In this document: in pieces, positions 43,630-59,293 of the stretch
Layout of the letters: each line of letters begins with the position of its first letter
Numbering within the stretch: the stretch's first letter is position 1
NCBI GenBank assembly: GCA_937897325.1
Contig: CALCOY010000025.1
Span: 1-64,000 of the forward strand
Length of the DNA stretch: 64,000 bases
Origin: an uncultured Shimia sp.
GTDB lineage: Bacteria > Pseudomonadota > Alphaproteobacteria > Rhodobacterales > Rhodobacteraceae
Direction of reading: 5' to 3'
Translations under genes and position numbers: made by a program
Notes under the pieces: model-generated
Told to the model about the DNA's origin: nothing
The model's input: only the letters and a program-made list of their open reading frames with translations
Database searches by the model: none

Positions 43630-44030
43630 GTGTCGTCCTCGCTTTTTTCTTCCATCGCTTCTTGCGCCAGCTCCATCGCGCGTGTCATGGCGGGAACACC
43701 TGCAAACATAGCGATCATGCCGATGGTTTCGCTCACCTGCTGTTCGGTGGCGCCCGCCTCGATCGCATGACGGACGGTCTGGCGGACGGCGGTGGCATTC
43801 TGCGCTCCCTGCATCGTCAATCCGCAAAGCGTGATCAGAAGCCGCGTCTTGGCGTCCAGCCCGTTTTCATTGATCGCATTGCCAAACCACGCCTCCATCA
43901 GCTCTTTCGGCATGGTCGGCCACATCGCTTCGAAAGCCTTGGGATCAAAGGCATTCATCTGCGGCCAGGCCTTCGCCATGTCCTGCACCTGGGCCATCAT
44001 CGCAACAAAAGGGTTTTTCGTGTCGGTCAT
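43626..44030 (-). CDS. carboxymuconolactone decarboxylase-family protein 1 (no CxxC)
   Basis: A 134-residue all-helical CMD/AhpD-fold protein. The core [58 protein letters not shown] is recognisable. The redox CxxC of AhpD-type members is absent, so peroxidase/disulfide activity is unlikely. Translationally coupled to nuoJ (ATGA) and to the DUF4259 gene upstream. A second CMD-fold gene lies just beyond that; the two may form a heteromer. Role in complex I biology unknown. Confidence 0.85.
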
Positions 44031-44716
44031 TGTTTGCGCTTTTCCAGCAGATCGATGCGCGCCGTCAAGTCATCCAGCCGACCGAGAACCGCATGCCGCA
44101 TATGCGTGACATCGCTGTGCAGCACATGGATCTTACGTGCGAGGTGCCGTAGCACTTCAACGGACGGATCCACCTTGTTCTGATCGGCCAGGCGCTCAAA
44201 GGCCGCGTGCATCTCGTCATACACTTCCTGTACGTCGGCACCCAATTCGTCTTCCGATGTGATCTCAACCGGCTGGAAGGCGGCATCCAGGTCATGCGTC
44301 TCGGCAGCTTTGATCAACCGTGCATCGAGATCAGCTATACTGGCACGCCATGCCGCCGCATCATCCGCCTCCTCCCAAAGTTCGGCCAATTCCGAAACTT
44401 CACTTTGCACAAGCACCAACGCGCCGCGTGCACGCCCAAGAACCTCGGCATTTACCTTCAGCGCCAATTCCAGATCGAATACCTTTGCATCCAACACACG
44501 CGGCTGACCCAGATCGTTGGCGACCACTTCAGCTGCCGCGACAGCGGTCGCGGCGGTACCCACATCGATGTCGCCCGCTAGCGCTTCGATGCGCAGGGTG
44601 CTGAACACCTCGTTCATCGCATCAATCTGAGAAACGGGCTGTTCCATCTTCTCGATCTCAGCCAGCCAATCTGCAGCATCGTCATTGTCGAATGCGAAGT
44701 GCCCCCAAGTGCCCAT
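44027..44716 (-). CDS. DUF4259 protein with C-terminal coiled coil
   Basis: A 229-residue protein. The first 15 residues (MGTWGHFAFDNDDAADW) are the DUF4259 signature, followed by an alanine-rich helical region. From about residue 110 the sequence is rich in heptads and ends KIHVLHSDVTHMRH...LDDLTARIDLLEKRK, a predicted coiled coil. The ORF overlaps the downstream CMD gene by ATGA. No enzymatic motif is visible; DUF4259 proteins have no known activity. Confidence 0.8.
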   Translation of the reverse strand: MGTWGHFAFDNDDAADWLAEIEKMEQPVSQIDAMNEVFSTLRIEALAGDIDVGTAATAVAAAEVVANDLGQPRVLDAKVFDLELALKVNAEVLGRARGALVLVQSEVSELAELWEEADDAAAWRASIADLDARLIKAAETHDLDAAFQPVEITSEDELGADVQEVYDEMHAAFERLADQNKVDPSVEVLRHLARKIHVLHSDVTHMRHAVLGRLDDLTARIDLLEKRKQ

Positions 44717-44752
44717 CAGATCATCCGCCTGTTGATCAGTGCTGCTTGCCGA

Positions 44753-45142
44753 TCATTCATGGTCTTCTGCCTCAAATACCTCAATCGCCGCGTTGAGCGC
44801 ATTGATCATAGCGGGAAACCCACCATAGAGGGTCATCTGGTAAATGATTTCGCAAATCTCTTCCCGGCTAGCACCGACCGCCCGCGCGCTCGAGATGTTC
44901 ACCTTAAGCTGTGGTTTGGTCTGGCCACCCAAGGCCGCAAGCGCTGCGATTGTTGCCAAAAGCCGTGTCTTTTCATCCACGACACCACGGCTGTAGAATG
45001 TGCCATAGGGCACTTCGACCACCATGCGCGACAGCCCCGGCACCAGCGCGTCATAGCGTGCGGCCAGTGCGTCTTCCATACCCGGATTAACGGCTTCGGA
45101 CAACGCTTTGCCACGCTTATATGTTGGCTCATCCAAACTCAA
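44753..45142 (-). CDS. carboxymuconolactone decarboxylase-family protein 2 (no CxxC)
   Basis: A 129-residue CMD-fold protein ([63 protein letters not shown]). It is closer to classical 4-carboxymuconolactone decarboxylase in its core than the paralogue at 43626-44030, but no protocatechuate pathway genes are near. No CxxC is present. It starts just after the 77-residue ORF on the same strand. Confidence 0.87.
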
Positions 45143-45145
45143 GTT

Positions 45146-45379
45146 TCAGAACCCTCCGGTGCATATGTCTGGTGCGGCCCATGCTTTGGCGGGCAGATAG
45201 GCATTGATCAACTCCGGACGGGTCGAACCGTTCTGCCAGCCCCGGGGACACGTCTCGCCCATCGAAACGTAAAACACGTAGTCCATCGTCGCCGCAACGA
45301 CCGAGCTGTGCGGTCCCGTCACAAAAAAAACGGCGCCTGCCAGGAAAACGAAAGCCACATATTTGGACCAGCGTTTCAT
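45146..45379 (-). CDS. small exported hypothetical protein, 77 aa
   Basis: Not recognised. A hydrophobic N-terminal segment (residues 7-29, signal peptide or anchor) precedes a short mature region with two cysteines ([10 protein letters not shown] and PDICTGGF), which could form a disulfide in the periplasm. It overlaps the nuoI stop region by ATGA, so it is translated immediately after nuoI. Confidence 0.65.
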
Positions 45380-47111: not shown

Positions 47112-47495
47112 TCAAGACGTCGGTATTCCCTTCTCCGCGCATGTTTTGGCCACCTCGTCGGCTTCAAGCGTGACCAATCCGCGCGGACGTGTTGGCGAGA
47201 TGGTGTAAACCGCATCGGCACGCCAGACGCCAGATACTTCATCTACTTTTGTGCGCAAATGCCGCGCAAACGCCCAGCCCTGACGCAAGGTGTAGCCTGC
47301 AACGGCGCAGTCGGCATAATCCTCGACATCAGCCTCGGTCAGAGCGTTGGTCATCTCCACATCAATATGCACCAGGTTCTCATCAAGGCCCAAGGTCCGA
47401 ATGCCCAGATACTCGGGGATCAGGTCCTCAGCTGCGGGGCCCCTATCAGCGCATGCGGCCATGGGCAACACAGCTATTAGGGCCAATGCCCTCAC
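47112..47495 (-). CDS. putative lipoprotein in the nuo cluster
   Basis: A 127-residue protein with a short signal ending in a lipobox-like LPMAAC (Cys15), so probably anchored to the membrane on the periplasmic side. The mature part has two further cysteines and no recognised domain. It starts with GTG at 47495, overlapping the nuoG stop (GTGA). It is one of several exported accessory ORFs inserted between nuo genes. Confidence 0.7.
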
Positions 47496-49513: not shown

Positions 49514-49912
49514 TTAGTTCACCCTTAGTAAAGCGCCAATCTGACTGCCTCTCGCGATCTCTGCCCGGCCAAGTTCGCAATACGTATCGGGGGTCGCACG
49601 TTTGACCCCGCCAGCTTGCAGATACTTGTCCCGCTTCGATTTCAACCGCGCCTTCTCGGAGTCCGACTTGCGATAGGCATTAATCTCCGCGTCCGAATAC
49701 CCCAAGTCCTTCGCCCGTGATTGCAAACCATTCGCCATGCTGATCGCACGGAACATGCGCGCAGATATATCCGGGCAGTTCTTACGGATCTCATCCGCGA
49801 TGCCAATCACCAGAATGGTGTTGTCGATCTCCGCCACCTCGCGCAGCGGCGGCTTGGCCAGGGACATGCTGGCCAGCAAAGCAATCATACCTGCCATAGT
49901 CATTGCGCGCAT
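49514..49912 (-). CDS. DUF5333 protein, exported, upstream of nuoG
   Basis: A 132-residue protein with a signal peptide (MRAMTMAGMIALLASMSLA) and a mature DUF5333-like domain (DEIRKNCPDISARMF, LGYSDAEINAYRKSD) containing two cysteines. DUF5333 proteins are found with nuo genes in Rhodobacterales; function unknown. It starts 4 nt from the nuoG start and so is tightly linked. Confidence 0.8.
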   Translation of the reverse strand: MRAMTMAGMIALLASMSLAKPPLREVAEIDNTILVIGIADEIRKNCPDISARMFRAISMANGLQSRAKDLGYSDAEINAYRKSDSEKARLKSKRDKYLQAGGVKRATPDTYCELGRAEIARGSQIGALLRVN

Positions 49913-50029
49913 CGTATCTCTCCTATCACACGACTTAGGTGTCGCAGAAGGAAAAGCCCACCATTGCTATGCAATAACAAGCCCGACAACCAATGGCATG
50001 GCGCATAATGTCGCCATCACTCAAGGCAG

Positions 50030-50413
50030 TTACTCCTCGCAGCTGCCCTGCAGCACCAGCGTGTCCCCGTCAAGCGTCACTTCTTCCGCATCAGGTCCCG
50101 AGGTCCATGCGATGTCCGATGTACCGAAATTCGTGACGCAATAGCTGATCGCCTCATAGCGACCCGCCTCGCGCGCGCCGTCCAGACTGGCCGAAACCGG
50201 CGTGACCGACACGCTGAACAGGTTGAACTGACGGTCGATCCGTTTGAGCTTTGCATTGTAGAACTGCCCATCGAACGCGATCCGATCCTCGTTGCGACCA
50301 CAAGCCGCCAGGATCAGAAAGACCCCAAGCAGCAAAAAGACCAACCAAAGAGCCGACCGTGTGTCGGTTGCGGCAACCGCTTGTGCCTGCGCCAGATCAG
50401 ACCGGTTCTTCAT
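50030..50413 (-). CDS. hypothetical membrane-anchored protein, 127 aa
   Basis: Not recognised. An N-terminal segment (ALWLVFLLLGVFLILAAC, about residues 22-38) could be a signal anchor or lipoprotein signal, followed by a beta-rich mature region (RIAFDGQFYNAKLKRIDRQFNLFSVSV, YEAISYCVTNFGTSDIAW). The frame extends to 50464, but the ATG at 50413 is preferred. It is 117 bp upstream of the DUF5333 gene on the same strand. Confidence 0.6.
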   Translation of the reverse strand: MKNRSDLAQAQAVAATDTRSALWLVFLLLGVFLILAACGRNEDRIAFDGQFYNAKLKRIDRQFNLFSVSVTPVSASLDGAREAGRYEAISYCVTNFGTSDIAWTSGPDAEEVTLDGDTLVLQGSCEE

Positions 50414-50869
50414 CACAATGCTCCACTCTGCATAACCTGACGCGTTGTTTGCGCCACATCGCAACAGCTTTCAAGAGGTGGGCGGTTCAACAGGCGAGCC
50501 GCTTGAACATCGGGACAGTGCCCAGCGAAGATACCGCGCCTCTCGCACGCACGTAGTGGCACTGAGTTTTTTGGGGCGACCAGCCATGAAAATCAAAAAG
50601 CAGCGAAAGCGGACGGGCCAACAGCGATGCCAAACGCCACACTTCCGCCCAAGGCTTTCAGCGAGTCTCTCGATGCATAAAGGCTCACACGACGCGCCAT
50701 GCATTTGGCGATGAGGGCTTGTCCGCAAGCGGCGCATTGAACATCACTGAATTGGGGTGGATTCGGTGCCAACACGCAAACCAGACCCAGTTGCTTGGCA
50801 CCACGCGACCGCGGGCCATCGGGCGGTACGGTTTTGGTTGCGACTTGACAGATGGTTCATCAAACCTTC
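50414..50869. other. 456-bp region without a convincing gene
   Basis: Only short frames occur here, e.g. a minus-strand frame at 50593-50775 containing CAACGQALIAKCMARR and overlapping frames on both strands. None has a good ribosome site or a recognisable domain. It lies on the nuoF-nuoG interruption together with an IS66 remnant and may be a degenerate or foreign segment. Confidence 0.5.
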
Positions 50870-51109
50870 CTATCTCCGCCGTCGATCACGTAGCGGGGCC
50901 ACGCCGCCCGATGCCTTACGCAGAAAAGCGATGACCATGATCCCTCCAACGACCAGAAGTCCTGCCATGGGAGCATAGGCCCAGGCAGGGATGATCCCGT
51001 AGGTGATCGCCTGATGAGATCCCCAAAGTGGCACACCCACGATTGCGATGGTTGCAAGCGCTGCGCCAAGGCTCAACAGTCCATCCCACATGTTTTTGAA
51101 GAAGCTCAA
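50870..51109 (-). CDS. small membrane protein, 79 aa
   Basis: Not recognised. Two hydrophobic segments (ALATIAIVGVPLWG and AYAPMAGLLVVGGIMVIAFL) and a basic C-terminal tail (LRKASGGVAPLRDRRRR). It would start with TTG at 51109 or ATG at 51091. No ribosome site is strong. Possibly a real small membrane protein of the interrupted nuo region. Confidence 0.45.
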   Translation of the reverse strand: MSFFKNMWDGLLSLGAALATIAIVGVPLWGSHQAITYGIIPAWAYAPMAGLLVVGGIMVIAFLRKASGGVAPLRDRRRR

Positions 51110-53886: not shown

Positions 53887-54108
53887 TTAACCCTTGTCCT
53901 TCTGGCGTGCCCGCCAGAACCCGATGCCTACCCACAGCGCCCAGCCGAACCCAGCGAGCACGATCAGATCGAACAGGGCCCGGATCCGGTTGGACCAGCC
54001 CAGTTGCGATCCGGCGATGTTGGCGCACACCCACAGGATGCCGAGCCCTGCAATGACCAAAGCCAAACGCTGACCTGCTTTTTGACCGTCACCGTGCTTT
54101 TGCGCCAT
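53887..54108 (-). CDS. DUF5337 small membrane protein
   Basis: A 73-residue protein with two hydrophobic segments ([18 protein letters not shown] and [17 protein letters not shown]), a pattern matching the DUF5337 family found next to nuoE/nuoF in Rhodobacterales. It begins 4 nt from the nuoF start. It could be a small accessory subunit or assembly factor; not established. Confidence 0.8.
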
Positions 54109-54121
54109 GTGTCATACGGCC

Positions 54122-54847
54122 TCAATCATAGACGCCGCCCTTTTCGACCTTTTTCGAAAACTCTGTCTCACCACCCGTCGCGAGGGTCTTGGCCTGTTCG
54201 ACCCAATTGTCCCGGCTGACCCGGCCCTTGAAGCCTTCAAGGTTTTGATCAACCCAGGACACCTCATCTGTCCCCCAGCTTGCGACCTGGTCGAAGTGGT
54301 AAAAGCCCATCGAATGAAGAAGGCCTTCGAGTTTTGGCCCAACACCCTTGATCTGTTTAAGATCATCCGGCTCACCTTCGCGCGCCTCCGTCAATGTCGC
54401 GGGTTTCGTACCGGGTCCTTCGGATGCCGCAGGCGCGGCTGCCGTCTCGCCCTCGTATTTCCACTCGCCTTTGCGTTCTGCCAGCTCCTCTTCGCCCTTC
54501 AATGACGTTGAGGGCTTGATCTCCATCGCGGGTTCTTCAGCAGAGGCAGAAGCCTCTGCGGCGGGTTCTGGCGCATGCGATGGATCAGGCGCTGCAACCG
54601 CCGCCGTTTCTGTTTCGGCCGCCCGCGTTTGTGTTTCCCCAACCTGCGACAAGGGCGGCAGAGCCTTACACAAGAACCGGATCAAAAGCGCGGTCGAAAA
54701 CGCAAACACCAAAATTCCGATAAAGGCCCCTTGCAGGAACGTGTATCCCCCTAAAACCCACAGCAGTGCCGCCGCGAACAAACCCCCGGCGAATGCCACA
54801 CCTGTGCAAGACAGCGCGCATCCAAAGCTTCCCTGATTGTTGTTCAT
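54122..54847 (-). CDS. membrane-anchored helix-hairpin-helix protein (NuoE tail paralogue)
   Basis: A 241-residue protein: two N-terminal hydrophobic segments (about residues 10-62), a low-complexity A/E/P linker (about 70-155), then a helix-hairpin-helix domain (about 160-225) with [39 protein letters not shown] and FKGRVSRDNWVEQAKTL. That domain is near-identical in plan to the tail of the neighbouring NuoE. No DNA-binding function is implied; GVGPK motifs in such HhH domains also mediate protein contacts. Nothing else is known. Confidence 0.82.
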   Translation of the reverse strand: MNNNQGSFGCALSCTGVAFAGGLFAAALLWVLGGYTFLQGAFIGILVFAFSTALLIRFLCKALPPLSQVGETQTRAAETETAAVAAPDPSHAPEPAAEASASAEEPAMEIKPSTSLKGEEELAERKGEWKYEGETAAAPAASEGPGTKPATLTEAREGEPDDLKQIKGVGPKLEGLLHSMGFYHFDQVASWGTDEVSWVDQNLEGFKGRVSRDNWVEQAKTLATGGETEFSKKVEKGGVYD

Positions 54848-54923: not shown

Positions 54924-56024
54924 TTATTCGTCTTCCGAAAGCGCCTTTGCCTGCGCGACCCATTCATCGCGACTGACACGGCCCCTGAAGCCTTCCAGGT
55001 TCTCATCGACCCAGCTGACCTCTTTCTCAGTCCAGGCGGCGATCTGATCAAAGTGGAAAAAACCAAGGCCGTACAACAGTTCTTCCAGCTTTGGCCCCAC
55101 CCCCTTGATCCGCTTGAGATCATCCGGGGCTCCGGCGCGCGCGGTCTCCAAAGACGGGGGCCTTGTGCCGACCTCTGCGACAGGTGCGGGTTTGCCCTTC
55201 GCATTGACAGTGCCAGGGACATTCCTGCGCTCCGTCAAACCTACGCCGCGCGGCGCCTTGTCGTTGTTGGAGGGCCCGACCAGATCATCCCGCACCGGGG
55301 CGCGGTCCTTCGATCCCTTGGCGCGCCATGGGGTGATCAGCGGCAGCTCAGTTCCGTCGATCCGTTTGACCGTATCATTGATATCATTGGCCAGTTGGAC
55401 GCTCGCGTTGAACTGGGTATGCCCGCTTTCGATATCGGTCAGACTTGTCAATCCATGCCGCGGCTCCGAAGCGAACCGGCCATTCTGCGGGCCCGGTGTC
55501 GGCACATTGCCTTTGGCAAGTTCATCAATGATTTCACGCAGGCGTTTGGCTGTAAGATCCTCGTAGTAGTCCTTGCCGATCTGCGCCATAGGCGCGTTAG
55601 AGCAGGCCCCAAGGCATTCGACCTCTTCCCAACTGAATTTACCATCCTCTGACAGCTCATGCGGGCGTCTGGCGATGCGATCCTCGCAGACCGCCACCAG
55701 ATCCTCCGCCCCGCAGATCATGCATGAAGTCGTACCGCATACCTGAATATGTGCAACGGAGCCAACGGGTTGAAGCTGAAACATGAAGTAGAATGAGGCC
55801 ACCTCGAGCGCCCGAATGTACGCCATACCCAGCATATCCGCGACTGTCTCGATTGCCGGGCGGGACAGCCATCCCTCCTGCTCTTGCGCGCGCCACAAAA
55901 GCGGAATGATGGCCGAGGCTTGCCGCCCTTCCGGGTACTTCGTAATCTGTGCCTCTGCCCAAGCCTGATTGGCGGAGGTGAAGGCGAAGCTTTCGGGCTG
56001 TTCTGCGTGAAGTCGGCGGAGCAT
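54924..56024 (-). CDS. nuoE: NADH-quinone oxidoreductase subunit E with C-terminal HhH domain
   Basis: A 366-residue fusion. Residues 1-165 are NuoE with the N1a 2Fe-2S ligands Cys96, Cys101, Cys137 and Cys141 ([22 protein letters not shown]). A linker rich in Asp, Asn and Lys follows, and residues about 300-366 form an HhH domain ([36 protein letters not shown]). E. coli NuoE is about 166 residues, so the tail is an addition. The ATG at 56024 sits in a TAATG overlap with the previous stop; a GTG at 56033 is less likely. Confidence 0.95.
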
Positions 56025-56476
56025 TATACGCACCCCTTTCCGTTGAATTTTATGAAGACTTGACCGGATTCAGTTTCTTCCAGCTCCAAAATGCCTTCAT
56101 TGGCCATATGAACGTGCGTCAAGTTGTAAAGCAGGTTTATCCGGCCGTGCTCAAACCATTCGTCCCGTTCGGCCGCGGTCGCTGTCCGTTTCAACGGTCC
56201 AGGATGGAGAAATCTGTAAGGTCGAACGGAGTCTTCGAATCCCGCATATGTCAACTCGCAGCCACGCTGCCTAAATACACCTTCGACGATCTTTTGGATA
56301 TGTTGACCACCCGGTGTCGCCGCCATCTCAGCTGGCATCTTAGCTGCTAACTCTCTGATATCGACAGATCTGGACGGTTGATTTGCGTCCCTGCCTTGCG
56401 CGGTTGAGAGGGTCGTTGACGCGCAGAAACACAGCGCTGTCACCAAAAAACGGACCACCACTGACAGAGGTATCAT
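56024..56476 (-). CDS. exported hypothetical protein between nuoD and nuoE, 150 aa
   Basis: Not recognised. N-terminal signal peptide ([23 protein letters not shown]), then a mature domain with [14 protein letters not shown] and two cysteines late in the chain, ending [10 protein letters not shown]. The frame is open further upstream to 56584; the ATG at 56476 overlaps the previous stop by ATGA. Coupled to nuoE, so possibly a periplasmic partner of complex I assembly. Confidence 0.65.
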
Positions 56477-56814
56477 TGCACGACAATCGCCTGCGACCGA
56501 TCCGCTGTGCGGTTGTTTGTCCAAAGGCGCGGCTCTGCTTCGCAGGTGCCTCCGTTTGGACAGACGACAGGCGGCTGGTAGCACGGCGAAGCAATGTCGC
56601 CCTGCCAGAATCGCGGCGATTGGCAGTCTCCGGGCGCGGCCAATTCCGGCAGACCCCGTTCTTCTCGCTCCACTTCTTTCCAGAACTCAGCCAGTTCTTT
56701 GATTGCAAGATTTCTTTCGACCTCGGCCAATTGGGGGTCGGAGCGGATCTCAAAGATCCAGAATGCGCCGCCCAGAACGGCCACAATACCGAGACCTGCG
56801 ATCAGTTTCTTCAT
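56473..56814 (-). CDS. exported/membrane-anchored hypothetical protein, 113 aa
   Basis: Not recognised. A hydrophobic N-terminal segment ([17 protein letters not shown], residues 5-21) acts as signal or anchor, followed by a charged helix and a cysteine-containing C-terminal half ([29 protein letters not shown]) with four cysteines that could form two disulfides. Coupled to nuoD by an ATGA overlap and to the next ORF by ATGA. Confidence 0.68.
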
Positions 56815-58034
56815 CGGTCAATCTCTCCAAACACCACATCCATCGTCCCGATGATCGCCGCCACATCGGCCAGTTGATGCCCTTTCGACAGATAATCCAT
56901 CGCTTGGAGATGCAAGAACCCTGGCGCGCGGAGTTTGGCGCGGTAGGGTTTGTTCGTGCCATCTGCCACCAGATAAACGCCGAACTCGCCTTTCGGTGCC
57001 TCGACGGCAGCGTAAACCTCACCTTCGGGCACATGGAAGCCTTCGGTGTAAAGTTTGAAGTGGTGGATCAGCGCTTCCATCGACTGTTTCATGTCCTTGC
57101 GCGACGGCGGGGTGATCTTGCCACGCGCCAAAACATCACCCTGACCTTCGGGCGCACGGAGTTTCTCGACCGCCTGCTGGATGATGTAGACCGATTGGCG
57201 CATCTCCTCCATACGGACCAGATAACGATCATAGCAATCGCCGTTCTTGCCAACGGGGATCTTAAAGTCGAATTCGTCGTAACACTCGTAAGGCTGCGCA
57301 CGCCGCAAATCCCAGGCGAGCCCTGATCCCCGCACCATGACGCCCGAGAACCCATATTCGAGGATATCTTCCTCGGTCACGATCCCGATATCGGCATTGC
57401 GCTGTTTGAAGATACGGTTTTCTGTCAGCAGACCGTCCACATCGACCATGAAACCGGTCAGGAACTTCTCGGCCCATGCCTCGATATCATCAAGCAGGCC
57501 CGCCGGCAGATCCTGATGCACGCCACCGGGACGGAAGTAAGCTGCATGCAGCCGCGCCCCACAGGTGCGTTCGTAGAAGATCATCAGTTCTTCACGCTCT
57601 TCAAAACCCCAAAGCGGCGGGGTTAGCGCGCCGACATCCATCGCCTGCGTCGTGATGTTCAGTAGGTGGTTTAGGACCCGCCCGATCTCGCAGAACAGAA
57701 CCCTGATCAGGGATGCGCGGCGCGGCACCTCGACGCCCGTCAGCTTTTCGATGGCAAGACACCAGGCATGTTCCTGGTTCATCGGAGCCACATAGTCGAG
57801 CCGATCGAAGTAAGGCAGGTTTTGCAGATATGTCCTGCTTTCCATCAACTTCTCAGTGCCGCGATGCAGCAAACCGATATGCGGATCGCAGCGTTCGACA
57901 ATCTCTCCATCGAGCTCAAGCACAAGCCGCAAAACACCATGTGCCGCAGGATGTTGCGGGCCGAAGTTGATGTTGAAATTCCGGATCTTCTGCTCGCCCG
58001 TCAGAGCATCATTGAAATTGGAGCCGTCCATCAT
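56811..58034 (-). CDS. nuoD: NADH-quinone oxidoreductase subunit D
   Basis: A 407-residue quinone-site subunit (49-kDa homologue). [48 protein letters not shown] and the C-terminal [15 protein letters not shown] are diagnostic. The ATG at 58034 overlaps the previous ORF stop by ATGA; the longer frame to 58052 is not needed. Confidence 0.98.
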
Positions 58035-58228
58035 GTCTGATCTCCCGACCATGGGCTAAGTGCCAACAACCAAACTGCAGCCACCACAAAGGCAACACTC
58101 GGCACCAAGGGCAGAACTGCCAACCATCTTGAAATGCCGATACGCGGCAAGGTGACCCAAAGGCCCACGGATGCAAGGATAAGTGCCGCAAGCAACGCCA
58201 GTGACGGCAGACCGAGACTGAAGGTCAT
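58031..58228 (-). CDS. small membrane protein C of nuoC-nuoD interval, 65 aa
   Basis: A 65-residue protein with two hydrophobic segments ([22 protein letters not shown] and [24 protein letters not shown]) joined by a short loop. The start at 58228 lies in a TGATG overlap with the previous 57-residue ORF, and its stop overlaps nuoD by ATGA. Third of three consecutive tiny membrane proteins between nuoC and nuoD; no homologue is recognised. Confidence 0.72.
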
Positions 58229-58401
58229 CACCGCTTCTCCATATCCTGTAGCCGTAGCGCAATCATCCACAGGAGGATCACCAGACCCAACGGGATAACA
58301 CAAAGTGCAGCCCACATCTTATTGATCCCGAAATGCGGCAGGATCTTCACCATCGGGATGATCGTCGCGATCACCAGCGCGAGCCAGATAAGACCCTGCA
58401 T
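58228..58401 (-). CDS. small membrane protein B of nuoC-nuoD interval, 57 aa
   Basis: A 57-residue ORF beginning [20 protein letters not shown]. Two hydrophobic segments (residues 4-17 and about 30-48, GLVILLWMI) and a basic tail (LRLQDMEKR). The start overlaps the previous 95-residue ORF by TGATG and the stop overlaps the next start by TGATG. The doubly coupled position indicates real translation. Function unknown. Confidence 0.68.
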   Translation of the reverse strand: MQGLIWLALVIATIIPMVKILPHFGINKMWAALCVIPLGLVILLWMIALRLQDMEKR

Positions 58402-58688
58402 CAGGCAGCCTCCCGCGTAAGCAGCCGCCGCGCCACGCCCTGCACGATCAGGCAGACCAAGGCGCAGGCGACACCGTCCATCGCAACTTGCCGGGCCACC
58501 GTCATCTCATCCGTGATAAAGCGAAACGGCAATAGCAACATGATGCCCGCGCCCAACACCGCTGCCACCCCAAAGGCCCACCAATACCGACGGAACAGCA
58601 CACCAATGCCCGCGCCGATCACGAAAAGCACTGGGAACAGCATCAGCGCAAGCAGGCTGACAAAGGTCATGAGCGCCGCGTCGATCAC
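58401..58688 (-). CDS. small membrane protein A of nuoC-nuoD interval, 95 aa
   Basis: A 95-residue protein with three hydrophobic segments: [38 protein letters not shown] and [20 protein letters not shown]. Coupled to nuoC at its 5' end (ATGA-type overlap with the nuoC stop) and to the 57-residue ORF by TGATG at its 3' end. Not recognised as a named family. Confidence 0.72.
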
Positions 58689-59293
58689 TTGGTATCGGCC
58701 TCCTTTTCGTCACCCGGCAGAATGTAGTCAGCCCCTTCCCAGGGACTCATGAAGTCAAACTGCCGGTACTCCTGCACCAGGCTGACGGGTTCATAGACGA
58801 CGCGCTTTTGCGCTTCGTCGTAGCGTACCTCGGTGTAGCCTGTCGTCGGAAAGTCCTTGCGGAGCGGATACCCGCGAAAGCCATAATCCGTGAGAATCCG
58901 CCGCAGATCCGGATGCCCTGAAAAGAGGATCCCGAACATGTCGAACACCTCACGTTCGAACCAATTCGCGGAAGGATGCATGGGCGTGATCGATTGCACC
59001 ATCTGATCCTCACGCACAGCCAAGCGCAGGCGGATCCGGTGATTCTGATACATGCTGAGCAAATGATAGACGACGTCGAACCGCCGCGCCCGCCCGATGT
59101 GATCCACACCCGTGATGTCGACAAGGGACGAAAACCGGCACGTGGCATCCTTCTTCAGAAACTCCACCAGCCCCGCAATACTGGCAGGAGCTACATCCAT
59201 AGTGAGTTCGTCAAAGGCGACTGACCACTTCAGGATGCAATCCGGCCGCTTCGCCTCGATGTAGTCGCCGAGTTCTCGCAGGGCTTCGGTCAT
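58685..59293 (-). CDS. nuoC: NADH-quinone oxidoreductase subunit C
   Basis: A 202-residue subunit of the quinone module. The conserved [40 protein letters not shown] is complete. The frame extends upstream to 59485, but the ATG at 59293 matches relatives. It is a separate gene from nuoD, unlike the fused nuoCD of E. coli. Confidence 0.98.

Follow-up and report, generated by a model that had tools for sequence, protein, structure and literature searches.

A family of two-helix membrane proteins in the variable nuoC-nuoD junction of Rhodobacteraceae, candidate helpers of complex I

Unidentified reading frames (URFs) occur in the nuo/nqo operons of Paracoccus and Rhodobacter. The three small ORFs described here between nuoC and nuoD, designated A, B and C, are extra ORFs of alphaproteobacterial nuo operons and belong to a kind that is already known. 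As stated in the available part of PMC8115037, the complex I of the Rhodobacteraceae group, that of Paracoccus, serves as a model for mitochondrial complex I, and in this tractable model two small hydrophobic core subunits probably escaped detection by mass spectrometry; a protein such as B would therefore be easy to miss too. According to the accessible excerpt of PMC11522691, the complex I of Paracoccus denitrificans, at 2.3 Å, carries NDUFS4, NDUFS6, NDUFA12 and PIMT beyond its core. Proteins P12, P8 and P6 of the Corynebacterium glutamicum III-IV supercomplex, to which entries 7qhm and 7qho also belong (their sequence is the same as 7q21_K), are lineage-specific and were first recognised in a cryo-EM map (PMC8795186, in excerpt). 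In the titles and abstract openings that were searched, a coverage outside which the operon papers of the 1990s mostly fall, no pointer to proteins encoded between nuoC and nuoD was found, and inserted genes go unmentioned in the excerpts of PMC12361115 and PMC4859585.

Layout of the nuoC-nuoD junction

On the minus strand of the window, by which we mean the whole stretch of DNA analysed (64,000 nucleotides), the gap between nuoC (58685..59293, identified from its translation), the upstream neighbour, and nuoD (56811..58034, starting at 58034), the downstream neighbour, is filled by ORF A (58401..58688, minus strand), ORF B (58228..58401, minus strand) and ORF C (58031..58228, minus strand). 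These coordinates confirm the three small membrane ORFs of 95, 57 and 65 codons that the first-pass annotation had placed there. ORF A, with 95 codons plus stop and a GTG start, is an orphan with three predicted membrane segments; B (57 aa) is a predicted two-helix hairpin from a conserved nuo-operon family, and C (65 aa) a predicted two-helix protein, its diverged tandem paralogue. Hydropathy counts 3, 2 and 2 hydrophobic segments in A, B and C, respectively, and AlphaFold2 models B and C as hairpins, in agreement with the two or three hydrophobic helices initially proposed for each ORF.

The stop codon of nuoC (TGA, 58687-58685) and the start codon of A overlap as GTGA, A/B and B/C each overlap as TGATG with one base in common, and the stop of C overlaps the ATG of nuoD as ATGA, so that the whole gap is spanned by a chain GTGA / TGATG / TGATG / ATGA. 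Both TGATG overlaps and the ATGA at nuoD had been read correctly in the first-pass annotation; the overlap at nuoC is GTGA and not the ATGA given there. Under a dinucleotide Markov model of the segment with a fixed start, a run of three ORFs, each 55 codons or longer and linked by TGATG, arose in 51 of 200,000 trials. Among 80 named loci carrying B, which are the best 80 of 148 confirmed matches, a simple start rule gives a start/stop overlap of B with the preceding stop in 41 and with the following start in 46, and coupling of B is therefore common and not universal. Other nuo junctions of the window hold extra ORFs as well, on the minus strand at 56024-56814, 53887-54847, 49514-51091, 47112-47495 and 44027-45379; Pfam recognises DUF5337 (53890-54108), DUF5333 (49517-49912) and DUF4259 (44030-44716) among their products, and seven of the ten extra ORFs scanned gave no match at E 0.01.

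By its codon usage, ORF A appears gene-like. Its GC3 is 0.80 and its codon-bias score of 0.117 equals the 99th percentile of wrong-frame scores, the training set being the long ORFs of the window with some wrong-strand ORFs included; on the same scale, one antisense frame of the A stretch scores 0.102, and the opposite strand holds a long ORF of 139 aa. No convincing homologue of A was found in 294 other Rhodobacteraceae genomes. Weak matches at E 0.002 to 0.1 were obtained in 60 Rhodobacteraceae genomes, many of them within far longer frames, nothing below E 0.05 was found in the 80 named junctions (from the best 80 of 148 B matches), and no PDB chain matched A up to E 1. Most likely, A is a recent, lineage-restricted arrival in the nuoC-nuoD slot. 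A 104-aa three-helix slot ORF from Sulfitobacter aestuariivivens (L241) was also considered as a relative of A and was set aside, homology being unsupported at z 1.4 with 96 of 1000 shuffles as good.

ORFs B and C and the wider hairpin family

Judged from its substitution pattern, ORF B is clearly a real gene under purifying selection. The first-pass annotation had raised the behaviour of synonymous sites as a check on coding, and for B the pattern is a coding one, with a pN/pS of 0.065 within 14 Ruegeria rows and of 0.120 within 15 Roseobacter/Sulfitobacter rows, all rows being chosen by motif, which biases pN down somewhat. Residues P16, K19, L21, P22, G25, W30, L43 and W45 show no variation in 32 rows. 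Over the 3632 of 5886 pairs with a usable Ks, which are non-independent, Ka/Ks has a median of 0.34 and reaches at least 1 in 8 pairs. The AlphaFold2 model of B is a helical hairpin with a pLDDT of 82.5 and helices at residues 2-24, 28-33 and 36-56.

Database comparisons show B to represent an undescribed two-helix family. Neither A, B nor C has anything above cut-off in Pfam or NCBIfam: the Pfam scores of B are 12.9 bits for DUF202 (cut-off 23.4) and 15.5 bits for AI-2E_transport (cut-off 34.3), and C reaches 8.8 bits for PrgI against a cut-off of 27. Likewise, relatives of the three ORFs gave no convincing Pfam or NCBIfam match, the best E values being 0.015 for PrgI and 0.99 for DUF805. A profile built from the 32 B rows retrieved no PDB chain below E 0.1, with one unrelated match at E 0.75, and Foldseek found no match to the B model in the PDB. 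In PHROGs, A and C gave nothing and B a single weak match at E 0.019, and the plasmids searched with A and B returned no match.

ORF C has a weak codon bias (GC3 0.58, score -0.061) and aligns at z 12-13 with the ORF that follows B in Roseobacter sp. WL0113 and H9 (L240, L262); these clear counterparts in two Roseobacter genomes make C look gene-like. B and C belong to one hairpin family in which C is a diverged tandem paralogue, as shown by their mutual alignment (z 5.4, a value reached by 1 of 1000 shuffles) and by a B'-type profile that retrieves both from the source genome, B with an E of 7.3e-12 and C with 1.5e-6. As B and C are related, the trio consists of one orphan, A, and a tandem pair. 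The AlphaFold2 model of C is again a hairpin, less certain than that of B (pLDDT 69.3, helices at 7-30 and 34-57). In other Rhodobacteraceae genomes, 17 of the 20 matches to C fall at places also matched by B, the remaining three (G029, G189, G255) are weak, two genomes (G123, G269) have two neighbouring matches each, and C stands next to B in a few genomes only. A PDB match of the C alignment to the 65-aa membrane chain 7q21_K, at E 0.018, was judged chance-level and is not counted as homology, because a B' profile finds nothing and another profile of the family scores an unrelated lectin at E 0.00028.

The distribution of B was followed in Rhodobacteraceae, a family assignment that we draw from named relatives. 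B-type matches (E ≤ 0.01) are present in 71 of 295 genomes, amounting to 73 matches with the window's own included, whereas NuoD was found in 283 of the 295; B is not retained wherever complex I occurs, and complex I therefore does not need it. All 73 matches lie inside the nuo operon: 72 of them adjoin nuoC, nuoD or both, and the remaining one is placed between nuoF and nuoG. These locations were assigned for 49 by comparing coordinates by hand and for 24 from fetched DNA. In the 49, the match precedes nuoD by no more than about 1.1 kb on the identical contig and strand; the flanks of 23 were searched, 21 of them having both nuoC and nuoD and one (L413) having nuoC and then the contig end, and the match of G306 sits in a fetched junction (L197). 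The match between nuoF and nuoG (L412 in G154, 1441-1662) is a B'-like hairpin with the second-weakest score (E 0.0038), and the neighbouring nuoF and nuoG products are 76% and 72% identical to the proteins of the window. In all of the 80 named loci, again the best 80 of 148 confirmed matches, nuoC precedes and nuoD follows B. Hence B is confined to nuo operons in the Rhodobacteraceae genomes searched, none of the 73 matches in the 295 genomes lying outside, with a B query at E 0.01 that would miss distant members; the window's own genome records may be absent from some collections. SPO2785, tried as a Ruegeria locus tag for B, proved to be nuoB.

These results bear on the question, raised in the first-pass annotation, of whether all three ORFs are conserved in order between nuoC and nuoD; such conservation is not supported, A being an orphan and C lying beside B in a few genomes only. 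Homologues do exist for B and C; for A, none is convincing in the 294 other genomes.

Beyond Rhodobacteraceae, a genome from another alphaproteobacterial family (G363) encodes a 59-aa B'-like hairpin between nuoC and nuoD, in one of the six other-family junctions that are wider than 90 bp. Across the class, the B profile matches 6 of 337 genomes, including two Rhodobacteraceae, and the B'-type profile matches 39 of 270, with at least two and mostly adjacent matches in 16 of the 39. Outside Rhodobacteraceae, nuoC/nuoD adjoin the wider hairpins in 1 of 28 loci read. The hairpin is therefore general in Alphaproteobacteria, and the B subfamily is nuo-bound in every Rhodobacteraceae genome where it was detected. 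B'-like hairpins, often in tandem, stand beside rlmN or argG at ten loci (L371, L373, L374, L376, L377, L381, L383, L388, L389, L391); of ten neighbour ORFs tested, nine pass the curated TIGR00048 cut-off for RlmN, whereas the tenth, a partial ArgG, falls short of its own cut-off. The hairpins beside rlmN/argG form an undescribed recurrent arrangement in other alphaproteobacterial families.

A variable slot between nuoC and nuoD

Extra genes, often translationally coupled, occupy the nuoC-nuoD junction of many Rhodobacteraceae, a slot whose contents vary. The distance between nuoC and the aligned nuoD start exceeds 90 bp in 96 of 126 Rhodobacteraceae junctions, as against 6 of 68 junctions from other alphaproteobacterial families by the identical measure; both samples favour a NuoD near that of the window, so these proportions are not unbiased estimates, and gaps beyond about 1.4 kb are outside the measurable range. 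The Rhodobacteraceae set comes from 130 fetched junctions, ordered approximately by NuoD similarity to the window with a few skipped and with G306 added for its B' match, from which four without nuoC in the stretch (L069, L077, L087, L097) were dropped. The control set comes from 69 loci, of which one (L293) is from Rhodobacteraceae and was excluded, and its 68 loci are approximately the NuoD matches nearest to the window from 103 other-family genomes with a match.

The 126 Rhodobacteraceae junctions contain a sulfotransferase in 37 cases, B in 33, B' in 18, a lumazine-binding-like gene in 12, GFA in 4 and an FlK-like thioesterase in 2, the Pfam identity of each class being taken from one example and the labels B and B' being set by our motif rules. 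In addition, several hold ORFs of 35-50 aa, some contents are singletons and 23 junctions have no gap. An unexpected lodger is the sulfotransferase of about 290 aa (for instance at L075, L091, L093, L108, L109 and L112), whose Pfam identity is that of the single example L210. Relatives of the window thus fill the same slot with unrelated genes over these 126 junctions, as would be expected of a site that takes passengers, and since these include unrelated soluble genes, position alone cannot prove a role in complex I. The first-pass annotation missed both this variability and the relatedness of B and C.

Individual loci add further detail to the slot. At one of them (L166 in G181) the B copy looks damaged: the caller finds only a shortened and altered B, followed by a fragment that resembles the lumazine-binding-like gene. 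In Ruegeria loci (e.g. L213-L215, L220-L224), a 40-aa one-helix ORF directly follows B; with a pN/pS of 0.034 over 15 motif-chosen rows, it is probably a real further microprotein. A NuoC tree for counting gains and losses was tried on 123 rows and rejected, with 4 of 120 inner branches starred and L165 misread. As this tree is too poorly resolved, its change counts (B 29, B' 14, sulfotransferase 20, lumazine-binding-like 11, GFA 4) are not used.

Possible roles and comparison with known systems

B and C may be lineage-specific hairpins, dispensable to complex I, that help its assembly or its membrane arm, a reading that we favour while holding it tentatively. B, with C as its diverged partner, would be a membrane helper of complex I and most likely an assembly or stabilising factor. 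It would be made while NuoC and NuoD are made, and could help the soluble quinone module to attach to the membrane arm; alternatively, B could be placed at the edge of the membrane arm as an accessory subunit. This helper role is favoured by the apparent confinement of B to nuo operons (80 of 80 named loci, these being the best 80 of 148, and 73 of 73 Rhodobacteraceae matches), by the nuoC-nuoD member in G363 and by the low pN/pS, the invariant residues, the hairpin model and the frequent tandem copies in the wider family. Against it, soluble enzymes occupy the same slot and most relatives have no B, overlap is not universal, no PDB match falls below E 0.1, related hairpins are mostly found elsewhere, and B may simply have stayed at its first insertion site. 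A conserved B that is nuo-only in the Rhodobacteraceae genomes searched fits the extra complex I protein imagined in the first-pass annotation, whose argument from position is weakened by a variable slot with unrelated soluble genes. A more far-reaching proposal, which we regard as rather unlikely, is that a function in complex I assembly has brought the hairpin family into nuo operons on more than one occasion, the Rhodobacteraceae nuoC/nuoD junction being a co-translational recruiting slot. The entries would be those at nuoC/nuoD in Rhodobacteraceae, at nuoC/nuoD in another alphaproteobacterial family and at nuoF/nuoG in one genome, and new membrane helpers like A and C would be tried out, then kept or lost lineage by lineage.

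The main rival to the helper reading, and a quite possible one, is that coupling keeps nuoD expressed so that insertions are tolerated, the inserted genes exploiting a strongly expressed operon while having functions unrelated to complex I, and B and C being general small membrane proteins that settled there. Such a passenger origin is consistent with the unrelated soluble genes in the same slot, with the patchy distribution of B, with the wider hairpins that other alphaproteobacterial families carry elsewhere, often next to rlmN, and with the extra ORFs in other nuo junctions of the window. However, pure hitchhiking predicts neither that the 73 B-type matches never lie outside the nuo operon, one of them being in a different nuo junction, nor that a hairpin occurs in the nuo operon of another family. 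The same operon confinement, together with the strong conservation of B, would suit an accessory subunit that is a constitutive part of mature complex I, like the supernumerary subunits of Paracoccus, and P12, P8 and P6 of the Corynebacterium glutamicum III-IV supercomplex (PMC8795186, in excerpt) offer a precedent; yet B is absent from most relatives, the PDB profile search retrieved no B-like chain among solved structures, and the additions listed at 2.3 Å for Paracoccus denitrificans in the excerpt of PMC11522691 do not include B, in a strain that may or may not carry it, and we regard this option as improbable. That the three are spurious ORFs of GC-rich DNA is very improbable, even considering the 139-aa ORF opposite A, the antisense frame that scores 0.102 against 0.117 for A and the weak codon bias of C. 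Indeed, the pN/pS of B (0.065-0.120) and, for C, the counterparts at z 12-13 in two Roseobacter genomes and the profile match already contradict it, and A has its 99th-percentile codon bias and a start and stop that overlap its neighbours.

As a conserved hairpin made between NuoC and NuoD and with no match in the searched family libraries and structures, B is a candidate assembly or membrane-arm factor that can be put to the test. The junction, which different genera re-fill although the operon around it is highly conserved, bears on the way in which accessory proteins are added to enzyme complexes.

Among described proteins, PrgI (PF12666), DUF805 (PF05656) and DUF202 (PF02656) also have membrane helices and give sub-threshold scores only, their best E values of 0.015, 0.99 and 0.16 supporting no membership. 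The hairpins beside rlmN/argG have a motif in common with B, are found by the B'-type profile and are often in tandem, but they lie outside nuo and several have a WP-type tail in place of the KLQELEKR tail of B. P12, P8 and P6 are, in the excerpt available, tiny lineage-specific respiratory subunits, and C resembles the 65-aa chain weakly and non-significantly (E 0.018); they differ in belonging to another complex and another phylum, and two larger hairpin profiles have no match to 7q21_K. If B were a subunit, it would resemble the supernumerary subunits of Paracoccus as an addition beyond the 14 core subunits of bacterial complex I, whereas the latter are demonstrated components of the enzyme, with no small membrane hairpin among them as described in the excerpt of PMC11522691, and B is a candidate with a patchy distribution. 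DUF5337 and DUF5333 belong to other junctions of this operon than A, B and C, which match no Pfam family above cut-off; like A, B and C, both these proteins and the URFs are encoded by small or unknown ORFs that lie between nuo genes and run in the same direction.
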